Positions 790 to 6,555 of a stretch of 64,000 nt of DNA are shown here, one piece after another. Positions within the stretch are counted from its first letter, which is position 1; the number at the start of each line of letters is the position of its first letter. The position numbers were made by a program, and so were the translations under genes. The notes under the pieces were generated by a model that made no database searches, was not told the origin of the DNA, and worked only from the letters and a program-made list of their open reading frames with translations. Source of the DNA: Shouchella oshimensis (GTDB taxonomy: Bacteria; Bacillota; Bacilli; Bacillales; Bacillaceae_D); assembly GCF_002019765.1 (NCBI RefSeq), contig NZ_KV917380.1:796707-860706 (forward strand), in the 5' to 3' direction.

Positions 790-816
790 TAAAAAAAGCG
801 ACCCTTTTAGGCCGCT
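790..816 (-). terminator. Rho-independent terminator of the aldolase gene
   Basis: On the minus strand AGCGGCC, loop TAAAAG, GGTCGCT (one G-U pair) is followed by seven T. It lies 14 nt after the aldolase stop codon. Confidence 0.85.
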
Positions 817-829
817 CCATCTTTGGATC

Positions 830-1666
830 TTATTTATTTTTATAAAGTGTCACAATTTTTTCCATATGATCGACCATTGCATGTTGAGCGTTTTCCATGA
901 CGACACTTAAGTGTGCTTTTGAATTTTCTTTTACTGTTTTAGCAATGCTTTCTACAGCCGTTAGAGAAATTTCCGTATTAACGTTGATTTTGCGAATCCC
1001 TTTTTCAATAGCTTGAAGTACTTCTTTTTCAGGCGTTCCGGACCCGCCGTGTAAAACAAGTGGCGTCTCAATTCGTTCTTTTAATGCGTCAAGTAAATCT
1101 AAGCGAATCTCTGGGTCACCGTCATACATACCATGAACCGTTCCAATAGAAGCTGCAAGAAAATCGACGTTTGTCTTTCGAACAAAATCGGCTGCTTCAT
1201 CAGGATCTGTTAAGCGACCGTCGCCTTCTTCTTCATCCGAAAACGCGCCTTTTTGCATAGAACCTATCTCTGCTTCAACATTAACCCCATGATCATGAGC
1301 AAAATCAACGACTTCTTTTGTTTGCTTAATGTTCTCTTCCAAAGATAAAGCTGATCCATCGAACATAACCGATGTGAATCCAGCATGAACGGCGCGACGA
1401 ATCGTTTCAAACTCATAACTATGATCCAGATGAAGAGCTACGTCAACGGAAGCTTGTTCGGCAATCACCTTTGTAAATGCAGCAAATGCTTCTAAACTCA
1501 TATAATCCTTGTATCGTTCACCGTACGCGATGATCACTGGTTGCTGTTGATTTTCTGCTGCCTGAACAGCAGCTTGGATGGTTTCAGCATTGTAACAATT
1601 AAATGCAGCAATAGCTGTATTTGTTTTTTCCGCATAAATAAGAACGTCTTTTGTTGTAGTAAACAT
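830..1666 (-). CDS. Class II fructose-bisphosphate-aldolase-family ketose-phosphate aldolase
   Basis: A 278-residue zinc-dependent aldolase of the FbaA/GatY/KbaY type, with the usual length. HLDHS (about residues 79-83, catalytic Asp and zinc His), EAEIGSM (about 132), GTVHG (His about 178), LHGGSG (about 206) and NVNTE (about 228) are all in order, so the metal and substrate sites look intact. The ATG at 1666 has AGGAGG 8 nt upstream; an in-frame TTG two codons earlier would sit almost on that site. The gene is divergent from an RpiR regulator, a GntP permease, a sugar-acid dehydrogenase and a DUF1537 kinase. I infer that it cleaves the phosphorylated oxo-acid made by that kinase rather than acting in glycolysis. 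Its true substrate is unknown. Confidence 0.85.
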   Translation of the reverse strand: MFTTTKDVLIYAEKTNTAIAAFNCYNAETIQAAVQAAENQQQPVIIAYGERYKDYMSLEAFAAFTKVIAEQASVDVALHLDHSYEFETIRRAVHAGFTSVMFDGSALSLEENIKQTKEVVDFAHDHGVNVEAEIGSMQKGAFSDEEEGDGRLTDPDEAADFVRKTNVDFLAASIGTVHGMYDGDPEIRLDLLDALKERIETPLVLHGGSGTPEKEVLQAIEKGIRKINVNTEISLTAVESIAKTVKENSKAHLSVVMENAQHAMVDHMEKIVTLYKNK

Positions 1667-1684
1667 TACCAATTCCTCCTGTTT

Positions 1685-1700
1685 TGTAGTTAAAACTACA
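1685..1700. promoter_or_regulatory. Operator palindrome 1, probable RpiR site for the aldolase
   Basis: TGTAGTTAAAACTACA is a perfect inverted repeat (half-site TGTAGT, 4-nt centre). It lies just downstream of the expected transcription start of the aldolase promoter and 18 nt before its start codon, where a bound repressor would block transcription. The same half-site recurs at 1790-1807. Confidence 0.7.
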
Positions 1701-1710
1701 TGTTAAGCAC

Positions 1711-1739
1711 ATAATAAGCCTCTAGTTTGTACAAATCAA
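1711..1739 (-). promoter_or_regulatory. Sigma-A promoter of the aldolase gene
   Basis: On the minus strand TTGATT (1739-1734), a 17-nt spacer and TATTAT (1716-1711) fit a sigma-A promoter. The predicted start near 1704 abuts operator 1. Confidence 0.6.
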
Positions 1740-1771
1740 GTCGAAATATGTAGAAAAAGAAAAATATCCTG

Positions 1772-1800
1772 TTGTGTAAGCGTTGTATATGTAGTAATAT
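1772..1800 (+). promoter_or_regulatory. Promoter of the rpiR-type regulator, with cre-like overlap
   Basis: TTGTGT (1772-1777), a 17-nt spacer and TAATAT (1795-1800) form a sigma-A-like promoter whose -10 lies inside operator 2. TGTAAGCGTTGTAT at 1775-1788 matches 12 of 14 positions of the Bacillus cre consensus, so CcpA repression is possible but unproven. Confidence 0.5.
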
Positions 1801-1807
1801 TACTACA
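1790..1807. promoter_or_regulatory. Operator palindrome 2, probable RpiR autoregulatory site
   Basis: TGTAGTAATATTACTACA is an 18-bp perfect palindrome with the same TGTAGT/ACTACA halves as the site at 1685-1700, but 6 nt apart instead of 4. It covers the putative -10 of the regulator gene and ends 19 nt before its start codon. Confidence 0.7.
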
Positions 1808-1826
1808 GAAATGAGGAGGGAAGAGA

Positions 1827-2672
1827 ATGCTTCGGTTTGAAGAACGCATTACGCTTAAAAAGAAATCGCTTACGGCAACTGAAGAAAAAATCATTCATCA
1901 GTTAAAAGTGCAGGACAAACCATTTCTTCTGTCTATGGGAGAATTAGCAATGCTAAGTGAAGTAAGTGAACCGAGTGTTGTTCGCCTGTATAAAAAGCTC
2001 GAATATCAATCCTATCAAGAGCTTAAAGTTGCTTTAGCGCAAGAAATGGCTGATATGAAACCGTCTTCTTTAGAAATTATTGATATTGCGAAGGAAGATA
2101 CGGCAGAAACCATTTTCGAAAAAATGGCTGATCAAGTTTTTCAAGCCATGGCTCTAACAAAAGAAAAGCTCTCAAATGAACGTGTAGAAGAAGCAGTTCA
2201 AGCCATTATTGAAGCAAACAGACTTTACTTCTTTGGTCAGGGATTATCTGCCACAATGGCTGAAGACGGTGCGCACAAATTTATGCGCTTAGGTGGGAAT
2301 GTTCTTTCAGTGAAAGATCCACATTATCAAGCGATCTATGCAAGTCACATGACGAACAAAGATGTCATTGTGGCGATTTCTCATTCTGGAGAAACGACGA
2401 ATATATATGAAGTGTTAACGATGGCAAAAAAACATGGGGCTTATCTTATTGTCATTACGGCAAATGAACATTCTAGTATTGCCAATGTTGCAGACAATGT
2501 TTTACTAACTCAGGCTCATGAAACAAAGCATCAATCGGATGCCATGATTTCAAGGCTCGTTCAACTCGTCTTAATGGATACGATCTATACAAGAGTTGCA
2601 GCTGAAGCGGGAGATGATGGGAAGAAAAAAATAAATCAATCACGTTTAGCCGTAACACGCATGAAAAAATAA
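1827..2672 (+). CDS. RpiR/MurR-family transcriptional regulator (HTH plus SIS domain)
   Basis: 281 residues. The N-terminal winged helix-turn-helix (about 1-77) contains SEVSEPSVVRLYKKL. The C-terminal SIS domain (about 120-250) contains YFFGQGLSATMAED and AISHSGETTNIYEV, the phosphosugar-binding pattern of this family. GAGGAGGG lies 7 nt before the ATG. It opens the rightward catabolic gene group and is divergent from the aldolase. Two palindromes in the shared intergenic region make it the probable local repressor, relieved by a sugar-phosphate or acid-phosphate intermediate. Regulator type is certain; the effector is inferred. Confidence 0.9.
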   Translation: MLRFEERITLKKKSLTATEEKIIHQLKVQDKPFLLSMGELAMLSEVSEPSVVRLYKKLEYQSYQELKVALAQEMADMKPSSLEIIDIAKEDTAETIFEKMADQVFQAMALTKEKLSNERVEEAVQAIIEANRLYFFGQGLSATMAEDGAHKFMRLGGNVLSVKDPHYQAIYASHMTNKDVIVAISHSGETTNIYEVLTMAKKHGAYLIVITANEHSSIANVADNVLLTQAHETKHQSDAMISRLVQLVLMDTIYTRVAAEAGDDGKKKINQSRLAVTRMKK

Positions 2673-2724
2673 CAATGTACAAACGTTAAACAAAAGTAAA
2701 AACACAATCTAATGAGGTGGGCTC

Positions 2725-4089
2725 ATGTTAACTGGCAATGGATTAATTATCGGATTTGTTGTCGCTCTTATCGTTCTTTTTATTCTTATTATGAAATTTA
2801 AATGGGATGCATTTATCTCATTGCTCGTTATCGCTGTTGGACTAGGTCTTGTTTCGACGATTCCTACACGAAATGTACCGACTGTTGTGGCAGAAGGATT
2901 TGGGGCTACGCTTACAGGAGTTGGGATTTTAATTGGTCTTGGAATTATTTTTGGACAGTTCCTTGCTGCTTCTGGTGCAATTGAAAAAATTGCCAGTTCT
3001 ATGTTGCGGGCATTCGGTATAAAAAATTCTCCATACGCGTTGGCTGCTACAGCTACAACAGTGGCAATTCCGGTATTTTTTGATGCAGCCTTTATTATTT
3101 TAAATAAACTCATACAAAGCTTATCGATTAAAACAAAAATCTCTTTGGCCACCTTTGTAGCTATTCTTGCTATTGGCTTGATTGTGTCCCATAGCTTAAT
3201 TATACCAACTCCTGGTCCTTTAGTTGTTGCAGACCAAATGGGCACAGACATTGGCATATTCTTTCTCTATGGGCTCCTTGTAGCTATTCCTGCAACGTTA
3301 GTAGGCGGTGTTCTTTATGGGAGATTTATCGGAAAACGAATTCCGAATGGCAATCGTTTAGATGATGCAGTTGAAGATATCGAAAACGTTGATAACACAG
3401 TATCACGTGAAATCCCAACTTGGCTTTCATATGCCATGCTTGCATTACCAATTGTACTTATATTATCGAACACATTAATTAATAACGTCATCTATCGAAA
3501 TGATCAAGAGCAAATCATTCCGACAATCTTTGCCACAATTGGTGACAAAAACATGGCACTCTTAATTAGTGTTGTTGTCGCAATGTTTGTTTTGCCTAAA
3601 TACATTAAAGAATCAACTCCGACAGTCTTTCGTCAAGCATTTGAAGCTTCTGGTATGGTCGTTTTAATTACAGGTGCTGGTGGAGCTTTTGGACGAGTTG
3701 TACAAGAAACAGGTTTAGGTGATTTATTAATAAGTGTTATGCAGGGAATGAACATGCCTGCGCTTTTATTAGGTTTTGTTTTTGCGCAAATCTTAAGAGC
3801 TTCTCTTGGTAGTGCAACAGTCGCTCTTGTTACAACAGCAAGCATCTTAGGGCCAATGGCGTTGGATCTAGGTGTGTCGCCAGTTTTACTGGGACTAGCC
3901 ATTTGTGCAGGAGGTATCGGTCTTTCATTACCGAATGACTCGGGCTTTTGGGTTGTTTCTAAATTTGGTCGATTGTCCGTTGCAGAAACGCTACGAGTTT
4001 GGAGTTTAGGCGGATTCATCGCTGGAGTAACAGCGCTTGCCTTTATTTTCTTCTTAAGTGCAATCGCAGGATTTTTGCCAGGACTTTAA
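2725..4089 (+). CDS. GntP-family sugar-acid permease
   Basis: 454 residues, mostly hydrophobic, with about twelve membrane segments. PTPGPLVVADQMG (about residue 155) and FAQILRASLGSATVALVTTA (about 352) are hallmarks of the GntP/DsdX/YgbN family of proton-coupled permeases for gluconate and related hydroxy acids. GAGGTG precedes the ATG. In the E. coli ygbJKLMN cluster a GntP-type permease is grouped with an LtnD-type dehydrogenase and an OtnK-type kinase, as here, so it probably imports the acid that the module degrades. The exact substrate cannot be read from sequence. Confidence 0.88.
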   Translation: MLTGNGLIIGFVVALIVLFILIMKFKWDAFISLLVIAVGLGLVSTIPTRNVPTVVAEGFGATLTGVGILIGLGIIFGQFLAASGAIEKIASSMLRAFGIKNSPYALAATATTVAIPVFFDAAFIILNKLIQSLSIKTKISLATFVAILAIGLIVSHSLIIPTPGPLVVADQMGTDIGIFFLYGLLVAIPATLVGGVLYGRFIGKRIPNGNRLDDAVEDIENVDNTVSREIPTWLSYAMLALPIVLILSNTLINNVIYRNDQEQIIPTIFATIGDKNMALLISVVVAMFVLPKYIKESTPTVFRQAFEASGMVVLITGAGGAFGRVVQETGLGDLLISVMQGMNMPALLLGFVFAQILRASLGSATVALVTTASILGPMALDLGVSPVLLGLAICAGGIGLSLPNDSGFWVVSKFGRLSVAETLRVWSLGGFIAGVTALAFIFFLSAIAGFLPGL

Positions 4090-4097
4090 ATGACAAT

Positions 4098-4128
4098 GGA
4101 AAAACCGACTACTTAGTTGGTTTTTTCC
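4098..4128 (+). terminator. Intra-operon terminator or attenuator hairpin
   Basis: GGAAAAACCGACT, loop ACTT, AGTTGGTTTTTTCC forms a near-perfect hairpin ending in a T run between the permease and dehydrogenase genes. As the downstream genes have no obvious promoter, it may allow partial read-through. Confidence 0.6.
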
Positions 4129-4183
4129 AGGTTTTCTTACAGAAATGAACCATTAACAACAGAGATAAAGGTGGAGAAGAAAT

Positions 4184-5089
4184 ATGAACAAACGTGTAGG
4201 ATTTATTGGATTAGGTATTATGGGTATGCCAATGACGCGGAATTTACTAAAAGCTGGTTTTAGCGTTACGGCTTTTGACTTGAATCAAGAAGCAGTAAAG
4301 GCTATCGCTGCTGAAGGTGCTGTTGCAGCTTCGTCAGGGAAAGAAGTTGCTCAAAACAGCGATGTGATTATTACGATGTTACCAAAAGGTGAACATGTTC
4401 GGGCAGCTGTTTTTGGCGTAAATGGGGTAATGGAAGGCGCAGAACAGGGGTTAATTATTGTCGATATGAGCTCTGTATCGCCTGTTGATTCAAAGCAAAT
4501 GGCAGCACATGCAGCAGAAAAAGGTGTACATTTCTTGGACGCCCCTGTAAGTGGTGGAGAACCTAAAGCCATAGATGGGACGCTTGCTATTATGGTTGGT
4601 GGCGAAGAAGACGTTTTTGCCCAAGCAAAACCTGTACTAGAAGCAATGGGAACTGACATTGTTCTAGTTGGAGATGCTGGTTGTGGAACAACAGCCAAAC
4701 TAGCAAACCAGATTATTGTGAACTTGAACATTGCAGCTGTTTCGGAGGCGCTTGTGTTGGCATCTAAGGCAGGTATTGATATTGAAAAGATGTACCAAGC
4801 CATTCGAGGCGGGCTAGCTGGCAGCACCGTCATGGACGCAAAAATACCGATGATTTTAGATCGCAATTTTGTTGCTGGTGGTCGGATTGATATAAATATG
4901 AAGGATTTAACGAATGTTATGAATACAGCCCATGAGATGCACGTTCCATTACCACTTTCTAGCCAACTGCTTGAAATTTTCCATTCGTTAAGTGCTGATG
5001 GTAAACAAGCAATCGATCACGGTGGCATTGTTCAGCATTATGAGAAGCTAGCCAATGTCATCGTTCAGCGTAAGGAGGATAAAGAATGA
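4184..5089 (+). CDS. garR: GarR/LtnD-type beta-hydroxyacid dehydrogenase
   Basis: 301 residues of the 3-hydroxyisobutyrate dehydrogenase superfamily. The N-terminal Rossmann motif is GFIGLGIMGMPM. The substrate loop DAPVSGGEPKA lies at about 119-129, and catalytic Lys172 sits in AKLANQ with Asn176. The run AIRGGLAGSTVMDAK strongly resembles tartronate semialdehyde reductase GarR, but LtnD L-threonate dehydrogenases share these features. Its stop overlaps the start of a DUF1537 kinase by 4 nt (ATGA), which favours oxidation of a sugar acid before phosphorylation, the LtnD role. The symbol reflects sequence likeness; the physiological substrate is open. Confidence 0.8.
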   Translation: MNKRVGFIGLGIMGMPMTRNLLKAGFSVTAFDLNQEAVKAIAAEGAVAASSGKEVAQNSDVIITMLPKGEHVRAAVFGVNGVMEGAEQGLIIVDMSSVSPVDSKQMAAHAAEKGVHFLDAPVSGGEPKAIDGTLAIMVGGEEDVFAQAKPVLEAMGTDIVLVGDAGCGTTAKLANQIIVNLNIAAVSEALVLASKAGIDIEKMYQAIRGGLAGSTVMDAKIPMILDRNFVAGGRIDINMKDLTNVMNTAHEMHVPLPLSSQLLEIFHSLSADGKQAIDHGGIVQHYEKLANVIVQRKEDKE

Positions 5090-6519
5090 AACAGTTAAAT
5101 GCGGAAGAGACGTTTGCAAGCATTAAGGCTGTCAATCGCAATGAAATACAGGCACTGTTAAAAGCGGAACAACAAGCTTCTCCCTACAAAATCGTCGTTT
5201 TAGATGATGATCCAACAGGCATTCAAACTGTTCACGGTGTTTCTGTATTTACAGATTGGACGAAAGCATCGATTCAAGCTGGTTTTAAAGAAGAGCAATC
5301 GATGTTCTTTATATTAACGAATTCACGAGGTTTCACTGAAGAGGAGACCGTTAAATGCCATGAAGAAATTGCAGAACGTGTACAAGAAGTAGCGGATGAA
5401 GAGAATCTTCCATACTTGCTCATTAGCCGAGGTGACTCAACATTACGTGGTCATTATCCATTAGAAACGGAAACCATTAAAACAAAAATTGAATCAATGG
5501 GACAAAAACGTTTTGATGGTGAAATTATCATTCCTTTCTTTAAAGAAGGTGGACGCTTTACCATTCATAATATCCATTACGTTCAGAATGGCGAAGTGCT
5601 TGTGCCTGCTGGAGAAACCGAATTTGCAAATGACCGTACATTTGGCTTTGCTGCTTCCCATCTAGGTGAGTACATTGAAGAAAAAACAAATGGTCGTTAC
5701 CAAAAAGGGGAGACAATCTACATTTCTCTTGAAGATTTACGAGCTGTTGCCATTGAAAAAATTACAGCACAATTAACAGCAGCGACTGATTTTCAAAAAA
5801 TTGTTGTGAATGCAGTTGGCTATGAAGATGTTGAAGTGTTTGCAACAGCTTTATTAAAAGCGTTGAAGCAAGGAAAGCATTATATAGCTCGTAGTGCTGC
5901 TGCTTTAACAAAAGTTATTGGTGGAATTGCTGATAAACCGTTACTTAAACGTGAAGATATGGTAACAAAAGGAAGTCGGCATGGTGGATTAATTGCCGTA
6001 GGCTCCCATGTGAAAAAAACAACGGAGCAACTTAAGCATCTTCTTGAAAGTGGCTTAGTAAAAGGAATTGAGTTTGATGTTCATCTTGTGCAAGATGACG
6101 AGAAATTTGCACAGGAAACGAAGCGCGTACGGCTTGCATGTGAAGAGGCCATTAAAAATGGTGAATCAGTTGTTTATTATACACGTAGAGAACGACTAGA
6201 TTTAGGCGACAATATGCAAGAAGAGGAATTGAAACAATCGGTTAAAATTTCTAATGCCGTTACAAGCATTGTAAAAGAGCTAGAAGTTGAACCGAGTTAT
6301 ATTGTCGCAAAAGGCGGCATTACCTCAAGTAGTATTGGTACAATTGGTTTAAGTGTGGAGCGAGCTGTCGTAGCCGGTCAAATCAAACCAGGGATTCCTG
6401 TTTGGAAAACAGGACAAGAAAGTAAGTTCCCAGGAAAAGCATATGTAATCTTCCCAGGAAATGTAGGGCAACCTGAGACATTAAAAGAAGCTGTTGCCAT
6501 TCTTGAAGGAAAAGAGTAA
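5086..6519 (+). CDS. Four-carbon acid-sugar kinase family protein (DUF1537, OtnK/DtnK type)
   Basis: 477 residues, full length. The N-terminal domain has the family signature LDDDPTGIQTVHG (about 39-51) and SRGDSTLRGHYPLE (about 113), which form the acid-sugar site. The C-terminal nucleotide-binding domain has AKGGITSSSIG, KTGQESKFPG and FPGNVG. Members phosphorylate 3-oxo-tetronate, D-threonate, D-erythronate and related acids with ATP. It overlaps the dehydrogenase gene by 4 nt, so the two are translationally coupled. The usual partner genes for the 3-oxo-tetronate route (OtnC decarboxylase, OtnI isomerase) are absent; the class II aldolase at 830-1666 takes their place in the cluster. Confidence 0.9.
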   Translation: MKQLNAEETFASIKAVNRNEIQALLKAEQQASPYKIVVLDDDPTGIQTVHGVSVFTDWTKASIQAGFKEEQSMFFILTNSRGFTEEETVKCHEEIAERVQEVADEENLPYLLISRGDSTLRGHYPLETETIKTKIESMGQKRFDGEIIIPFFKEGGRFTIHNIHYVQNGEVLVPAGETEFANDRTFGFAASHLGEYIEEKTNGRYQKGETIYISLEDLRAVAIEKITAQLTAATDFQKIVVNAVGYEDVEVFATALLKALKQGKHYIARSAAALTKVIGGIADKPLLKREDMVTKGSRHGGLIAVGSHVKKTTEQLKHLLESGLVKGIEFDVHLVQDDEKFAQETKRVRLACEEAIKNGESVVYYTRRERLDLGDNMQEEELKQSVKISNAVTSIVKELEVEPSYIVAKGGITSSSIGTIGLSVERAVVAGQIKPGIPVWKTGQESKFPGKAYVIFPGNVGQPETLKEAVAILEGKE

Positions 6520-6525
6520 ACAAGA

Positions 6526-6555
6526 GAAGGCGTGGTACATCCATGCCTTCTTTTT
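6526..6555 (+). terminator. Terminator of the acid-sugar operon
   Basis: GAAGGCGTGG, loop TACAT, CCATGCCTTC followed by TTTTT, starting 6 nt after the kinase stop codon. Confidence 0.9.

Follow-up and report, generated by a model that had tools for sequence, protein, structure and literature searches.

A divergent five-gene cluster and its intergenic palindromes

Positions 790-6555 of a 64-kb stretch of the Shouchella oshimensis genome (contig NZ_KV917380.1, 796,707 to 860,706; hereafter the window) hold a divergent gene cluster that an earlier, sequence-only reading had described as a catabolic module for acid sugars. The host genome, a member of the Shouchella group, is 4.06 Mb long and forms a single contig, and our family profile search of the window recovered all five genes of that reading at the positions it had given them. 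Encoded on the reverse strand is a class II, F_bP-type (zinc) aldolase (830-1672; PF01116, 4e-87), the start of which, judging from homologues, is likely an ATG two codons further into the frame than the listed TTG. The aldolase faces the other way from a forward-strand arm made up of an RpiR-family regulator with HTH_6 and SIS domains (1827-2672; PF01418, 4e-13, and PF01380, 3.4e-22), a GntP-family sugar-acid permease (2725-4089; PF02447, 2.8e-103; TIGR00791, 317 bits against a cut-off of 293), a beta-hydroxyacid dehydrogenase with NAD_binding_2 and NAD_binding_11 domains (4184-5089), and a DUF1537 acid-sugar kinase with SBD_N and NBD_C domains (5086-6519). As had also been pointed out, the last two genes overlap by 4 nt (5086-5089). 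Of eight named loci that a pattern scan returned, that of Shouchella miscanthi is the closest (kinase, 94%).

More conspicuously, the pattern TGTAGT-N(2-8)-ACTACA occurs exactly twice in the 64 kb, where 0.05 occurrences are expected (mean over 40 simulated first-order Markov sequences), and both of these operator-like palindromes fall in the 154-bp gap separating the aldolase and RpiR starts, with TGTAGTTAAAACTACA on the aldolase side (1685-1700) and TGTAGTAATATTACTACA on the RpiR side (1790-1807). With one mismatch tolerated, all 10 of the aldolase-bearing relatives scanned had at least one site near these gene starts, and nine of the 10 had two or more, while aldolase-less loci with an RpiR gene had one site in four cases and none in the fifth. 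Since the palindromes are common to both arms and are kept in relatives, they support co-regulation of the two arms, as the earlier proposal of one operator type on both sides had implied. Here, the RpiR protein would bind the two palindromes and control both arms, and the gene set is probably self-regulated.

Terminator-like hairpins are found on the forward strand in the gap between permease and dehydrogenase (4098-4127, a weak one with a 13-bp stem) and 3' of the kinase (6522-6554, 14-bp stem). Such hairpins are near background in number (7 found versus 5.8 in shuffled sequences) and hence weak evidence, though the first may mean that the two halves of the operon differ in expression level. 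A promoter scan was uninformative (8 hits versus 14.6 in shuffles). The right-hand neighbors, a PanE-like reductase and a major facilitator superfamily protein on the other strand, adjoin the cluster at the four closest loci (L061-L064) but seldom at more distant ones.

Lineages of the dehydrogenase, kinase, and aldolase

The dehydrogenase had been termed GarR/LtnD-type, of which the GarR half stands and the LtnD half does not. In fact, it scores above the cut-offs of two curated tartronate-semialdehyde reductase models (PRK11559, 450 against 397 bits; TIGR01505, 371 against 341 bits) and below that of the LtnD model NF043037 (212 against 350 bits), with identities of 52.6% to E. coli GarR, 43% to GlxR, 33% to YihU, and 31% to YgbJ/LtnD, and its SGGEPKAIDGTL motif is identical to that of GarR. 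In a tree from which, as in those of the kinase and aldolase, near-duplicates had been removed, the kinase-linked dehydrogenases and a few unlinked ones make up one clade (52 rows; SH-like approximate likelihood ratio test (SH-aLRT) support of 97) inside a larger branch that holds E. coli GarR. On model scores and tree position, the enzyme resolves to GarR (tartronate-semialdehyde reductase) descent, not LtnD. Even so, labels of this kind call for caution, as the available part of a 2025 paper lists among over-propagation mistakes a machine-learning tool's assignment of the tartronate-semialdehyde reductase number to E. coli LtnD (PMC12506659).

Four alignment columns are uniform within and different between 55 distinct kinase-linked sequences (own included) and 10 GarR/GlxR-type rows, the latter being the unlinked rows with His238 plus E. 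coli GarR and GlxR, a choice by His that is partly circular. Relative to GarR, the kinase-linked enzymes show A180N, F233G, L237I, and H238N, and the window dehydrogenase accordingly has N180/G233/I237/N238 in place of the A180/F233/L237/H238 of GarR, GlxR, and the unlinked GarR-type rows. At these positions, LtnD (YgbJ) has G, S, I, and F, and the dehydrogenase of Arthrobacter sp. StoSoilB13 (L060), our stand-in for the proteins of Arthrobacter sp. ZBG10, has G, A, I, and F; the stand-in is likewise under the LtnD cut-off (244 against 350 bits), yet is best-scoring with that model. Both of these were kept outside the four-position comparison, as were L169 and L180 (NGIN; the L180 kinase lies beyond its flank), L188 (SGIN), L192 and L193 (SGTN), L197 (AFLM), L198 (GFFQ), L059_13545 (GSLF), and YihU (IFLA), whereas L058_6245 and L059_12451 were excluded as members of another dehydrogenase family. 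The L192 and L193 genes adjoin sugar-isomerase-like and Zn-dehydrogenase-like genes (by eye).

Phe233 of the GarR/GlxR-type enzymes is gone in the kinase-linked set and in LtnD alike, and the solved family members in the alignments examined retain it, except for the LtnD-like chain 3g0o. Docking in Pseudomonas 3HIBDH-IV puts Phe235 in contact with the substrate, according to the accessible part of PMC3642240, and because the spacing of this residue from the catalytic lysine is 64, versus 61 here and 62 in 5je8, its equivalence to position 233 is likely rather than certain. A single-sequence fold of the dehydrogenase (mean predicted local distance difference test score of 34) was left unused, and the three-dimensional place of residues 180 and 233-238 is presumed. 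Taken this way, the protein is probably a GarR-derived enzyme with altered residues at the substrate pocket, and such changes weaken the case for tartronate semialdehyde as its substrate.

The kinase belongs to a 2-OtnK-like superclade of 62 of the 66 rows in its tree (SH-aLRT 100), together with Arthrobacter, Deinococcus, and Rhodococcus kinases from clusters holding an F_bP aldolase, and is well separated from YgbK of E. coli and from the PdxA-linked kinases; with the 3-oxo-tetronate kinase (OtnK) model NF043035 it scores 27 bits against a cut-off of 350. The pairing of a 2-OtnK-kind kinase with a nearby F_bP aldolase was thereby found by comparison with the stand-ins L058-L060 rather than with the ZBG10 sequences. 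In three genomes (G237, G307, and G385), a kinase about 42% identical to that of the window accompanies this type of dehydrogenase, and the one of these kinases included in the tree (L147) sits on the Arthrobacter/Deinococcus/Rhodococcus branch (support of only 86), which suggests that the two kinds of kinase may be exchangeable in function. A phmmer search of the kinase against solved structures returned nothing relevant. Related kinases at L053, L161, and L162 adjoin BKACE-type beta-keto-acid cleavage enzymes, with an Asp/Glu racemase-family protein also at L053, and a beta-keto acid substrate would fit these neighbors. More distant superclade kinases at L148, L149, L157, and L163 lie beside what seem, by eye, to be transketolase-like subunits and, at three of these loci, a thiamine-dependent enzyme.

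The aldolase exceeds the cut-off of TIGR00167, a broad subfamily model for ketose-bisphosphate aldolases (255 against 216 bits), and fails all the fructose/tagatose-bisphosphate equivalog models, including TIGR01859 (266 bits, cut-off 343), which two others of the four F_bP aldolases in the host genome pass (432 and 387 bits). It keeps the metal and dihydroxyacetone phosphate (DHAP) motifs HLDH, GTVHG, LHGGSG, and NVNTE, but the GG-ED loop of the aligned fructose/tagatose-bisphosphate aldolases is replaced and their C-terminal motif is missing. Its neighbors in the tree are the kinase-linked aldolases of L058 (44% identical) and L158-L160 along with YdjI, and fba, GatY/KbaY, and the pair 8q57/8q58 lie elsewhere, while the Rhodococcus and Arthrobacter aldolases (L059/L060) fall outside on long branches that are untrustworthy with the quick tree method used. 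Its best solved relatives are 8q57 and 8q58, titled tagatose-bisphosphate and ketose-bisphosphate aldolase. By model scores and motifs, this protein is not the normal glycolytic fba that the sequence-only reading had named as its own counter-case. A second setting of the aldolase clade is seen at L086, L150, and L206, where genes for a 377-aa cupin protein, a LacI regulator, a hydrolase, the aldolase, and an HpcH aldolase occur with or without the kinase.

Distribution of the unit and the search for an OtnC-type enzyme

Counting our own genome, the kinase is present in 27 of 120 relatives (E <= 1e-30) and, at E <= 1e-60, in 39 of 398 class-drawn and 12 of 398 phylum-drawn genomes. We compared 55 loci with both dehydrogenase and kinase, a count that omits the window and L047-L050 (duplicates of other genomes included) and is not a random sample, as the loci were collected by kinase similarity. 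A GntP-family permease lies near 50 of these, and 20 have an F_bP aldolase no more than about 6.5 kb away; among the 20 aldolases, that of L154 resembles an ordinary fba and that of L160 is nearest to KbaY. The order dehydrogenase-kinase-aldolase-permease on one strand is found in two Planococcus genomes and one more, a more diverged aldolase occupies the same slot in three distant Bacillota, and kinase and aldolase are also adjacent in Deinococcus and Rhodococcus. Loci of the Shouchella clausii type keep the RpiR-dehydrogenase-kinase arm without the aldolase.

Searched for on its own (E <= 1e-66), the aldolase clade appears in six of 398 genomes, namely our own, four at 49% identity or above, and one with a 44% match. 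All four of the former have the kinase (four of five with the 44% match), giving Fisher p values of 7e-5 and 3e-4 in tests that treat the two 398-genome draws for kinase and aldolase as the same set, which look alike and are not matched genome by genome. In one of the four (G315), the aldolase homolog is away from the kinase, in a cupin/LacI/hydrolase/HpcH aldolase/TRAP (tripartite ATP-independent periplasmic transporter) cluster. Altogether, the conserved unit is dehydrogenase-kinase, usually with a GntP-type permease, and aldolase and kinase tend to co-occur, yet the unit is often found without the aldolase. At one same-genus locus (L071, G002:C21, 7195-9525), dehydrogenase and kinase form a single 776-aa frame (residues 1-298 and 301-776) reminiscent of the plant LTD fusion, although a shortened permease before it and an assembly of about 90 contigs make decay or an assembly error possible.

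An OtnC-type enzyme had been reported as missing, and E. coli OtnC (YgbL) indeed had no tblastn hit at E <= 1e-3 across the window and the adjoining 10 kb on its left; the same was true of OtnI (YgbM), for which this was the whole range searched in the genome. Nor is there a PdxA2 partner, as in the D-threonate DtnK/PdxA2 route, among the cluster genes. The genome has four DUF1537 genes, these being the window's, two beside PdxA-like genes (by eye), and one in a TRAP/OtnC-like cluster (L012, G000:C1:3428000-3447999) with an OiaK/OtnK-like kinase, an OtnC-like protein, a Zn-dehydrogenase, and GntR-like and TRAP genes. The best-scoring model for this kinase is that of 3-oxo-isoapionate kinase (417 bits, cut-off 700), and the L012 cluster is perhaps an apionate-type route. 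Three PF00596 (Aldolase_II) genes, all away from our cluster, are present as well: the OtnC-like one, about 4.5 kb from the OiaK/OtnK-like kinase, a second among methionine-salvage-like genes (by eye), and a third at G000:C1:2402512.

A candidate three-step route and its alternatives

According to the available text of PMC12540250, a three-step route for L-threonate and D-erythronate (LtnD, 2-OtnK, and 2-OtnC) has been characterized in vitro for Arthrobacter sp. ZBG10; this bypass, which uses an F_bP-type 2-OtnC and no OtnI, dates from 2024 (Guo et al.). We favor the cluster as a variant of this route, acting on an acid of tetronate size and yielding DHAP, and give that reading about an even chance. 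The genes would then serve the inducible breakdown of a short sugar acid, with a four-carbon aldonate of the threonate or erythronate type as the likeliest substrate. Here, the GntP permease would import the acid, the GarR-lineage dehydrogenase would oxidize it to a keto acid, and the DUF1537 kinase would phosphorylate the terminal hydroxymethyl group, after which the zinc aldolase, via DHAP-enediolate chemistry, would release DHAP. For a C4 substrate, this last step is expected to be loss of CO2 rather than the retro-aldol cleavage proposed earlier, which would hold only for a longer one. Counting in favor are the trio of protein families shared with the three-step route and plant LTD, as both are described in the accessible part of PMC12540250, the superclade that the kinase shares with kinases of F_bP-aldolase clusters, the intact DHAP-site motifs LHGGSG and NVNTE, the dehydrogenase signature, and the shared palindromes.

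Several observations weigh against it. The dehydrogenase scores like a tartronate-semialdehyde reductase and not like LtnD, and since its four signature positions characterize a single clade, shared ancestry by itself could account for them. Moreover, unlinked members of that clade (L169, L188, L192, and L193) have G233 and N238 too, and a simple rule is contradicted by L195, where a GarR-type (AFLH) dehydrogenase adjoins an OtnK/OiaK-like kinase. The aldolase is no nearer to the Arthrobacter L060 aldolase (35% identity) than to the fba of its own genome (40%). In addition, 35 of the 55 dehydrogenase-kinase loci are without a nearby F_bP aldolase, the kinase occurs at 13 more loci with no dehydrogenase called separately (one being the L071 fusion), and of 26 kinase genomes with no aldolase near the kinase, 25 have no F_bP match elsewhere above 44% identity and one has a 49% homolog.

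These last counts bear on the best-surviving alternative, an unlikely one in our estimation, in which permease, dehydrogenase, and kinase are the core pathway and the aldolase is an accessory under the same regulator, either for a related substrate or for speeding a step done by the glycolytic Fba or by spontaneous decarboxylation of 3-oxo-4-phosphotetronate. The patchy presence of the aldolase, its absence from the Shouchella clausii-type loci, and the G315 homolog in another cluster without the kinase all suit such a role. It fits poorly with palindromes common to both arms, with the contiguous Planococcus-type order and the diverged aldolases of distant Bacillota, and with a rare aldolase clade that is almost confined to kinase genomes and recurs beside the kinase in Deinococcus and Rhodococcus. 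The single pathway of oxidation, phosphorylation, and class II aldolase cleavage that had been proposed gains from those same points and from the failure with fba models, and loses the aldolase as a fixed part.

Less probable again is a six-carbon route, in which GntP imports a 5-keto-hexonate (or a uronate-derived ketose is made in the cell), the kinase phosphorylates the CH2OH adjoining the ketone, cleavage by the aldolase yields DHAP and tartronate semialdehyde, and the GarR-type enzyme reduces the latter to D-glycerate. This would amount to a carboxylate version of the sulfoglycolytic Embden-Meyerhof-Parnas (EMP) route and of IolC/IolJ. The GarR-like scores and identity of the dehydrogenase speak for it, as do 8q57/8q58 as solved relatives of the aldolase and the annotation of E. 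coli YdjI for a uronate-ended ketose 1-phosphate. A glycerate kinase match was found in 47 of 47 kinase-bearing genomes tested, but 31 of the 33 comparison genomes had one too (in a single case a 30-bit fragment), which makes it uninformative. Characterized DUF1537 kinases act on C4-C5 acids, and in all linked homologs collected the four signature positions are unlike GarR/GlxR; once these had been counted, what was first our leading idea was demoted to a rival. Lastly, an ordinary glycolytic fba with the real OtnC encoded elsewhere is highly improbable, for although the genome has an OtnC-like gene and the aldolase passes TIGR00167, two other aldolases of the host pass the TIGR01859 model that this one fails, and the OtnC-like gene is under its curated cut-off (131 against 250 bits), in a kinase/TRAP cluster of its own with no exact palindrome.

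Going beyond the three-step reading, we raise a doubtful extension, namely that in Bacilli a further type of sugar-acid dehydrogenase serving DUF1537 pathways arose within the lineage of tartronate-semialdehyde reductases and converged on LtnD in losing the pocket Phe. This enzyme might act directly on the beta (C3) hydroxyl, giving a 3-oxo acid that, once phosphorylated, decarboxylates with little help, the aldolase being an add-on recruited more than once. Easy decarboxylation of a beta-keto acid would account for the dispensability of OtnI and, at most loci compared, of a dedicated aldolase. Should our reading of the cluster hold, the three-step route for acid sugars works with different dehydrogenases and does not always require the aldolase, four residues may separate the two dehydrogenase functions, and the label "garR / 2-hydroxy-3-oxopropionate reductase" may be wrong for many Bacilli genes beside DUF1537 kinases. 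There is also relevance to the bacterial use of plant ascorbate breakdown products. A literature search of partial coverage found, among titles and abstract openings, no study of the dehydrogenase-kinase-GntP unit of Bacilli. With a three-step F_bP-type route without OtnI in print since 2024, as the available part of PMC12540250 has it, the novelty claimed in the sequence-only reading is gone; new here are the distinct dehydrogenase lineage and the patchy aldolase, whereas the route type itself is already known.

Among known systems, Sulfo-EMP2 (SqiA), as described in the accessible part of PMC12890257, and YdjH/YdjI also combine a kinase with a class II aldolase and convert an anion-ended ketose phosphate to DHAP. 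Unlike them, our cluster has no isomerase. Their kinases belong to another family than that of our cluster. The E. coli four-step tetronate route (ygbJKLMN) likewise clusters a GntP-type permease, a beta-hydroxyacid dehydrogenase, and a DUF1537 kinase, but its YgbL and YgbM lack counterparts in the region searched here and its kinase is on a very distant branch. A closer resemblance is to the three-step route of ZBG10, with which the cluster shares a dehydrogenase, a DUF1537 kinase, and an F_bP-type aldolase, without OtnI or an adducin-type OtnC and with DHAP as the (here predicted) end product, and from which it differs in the GarR-descended dehydrogenase, the RpiR neighbor, and the diverged aldolase loop. 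The earlier lead to the plant protein At1g18270 (LTD) proved sound, in that it has the same three domain kinds (dehydrogenase, DUF1537, and aldolase) in one protein, a fusion with two LtnD-like copies that we liken by domain description and not by sequence; according to the available text, LTD is required for L-threonate metabolism, with its own enzyme activities still unproven (PMC12540250).

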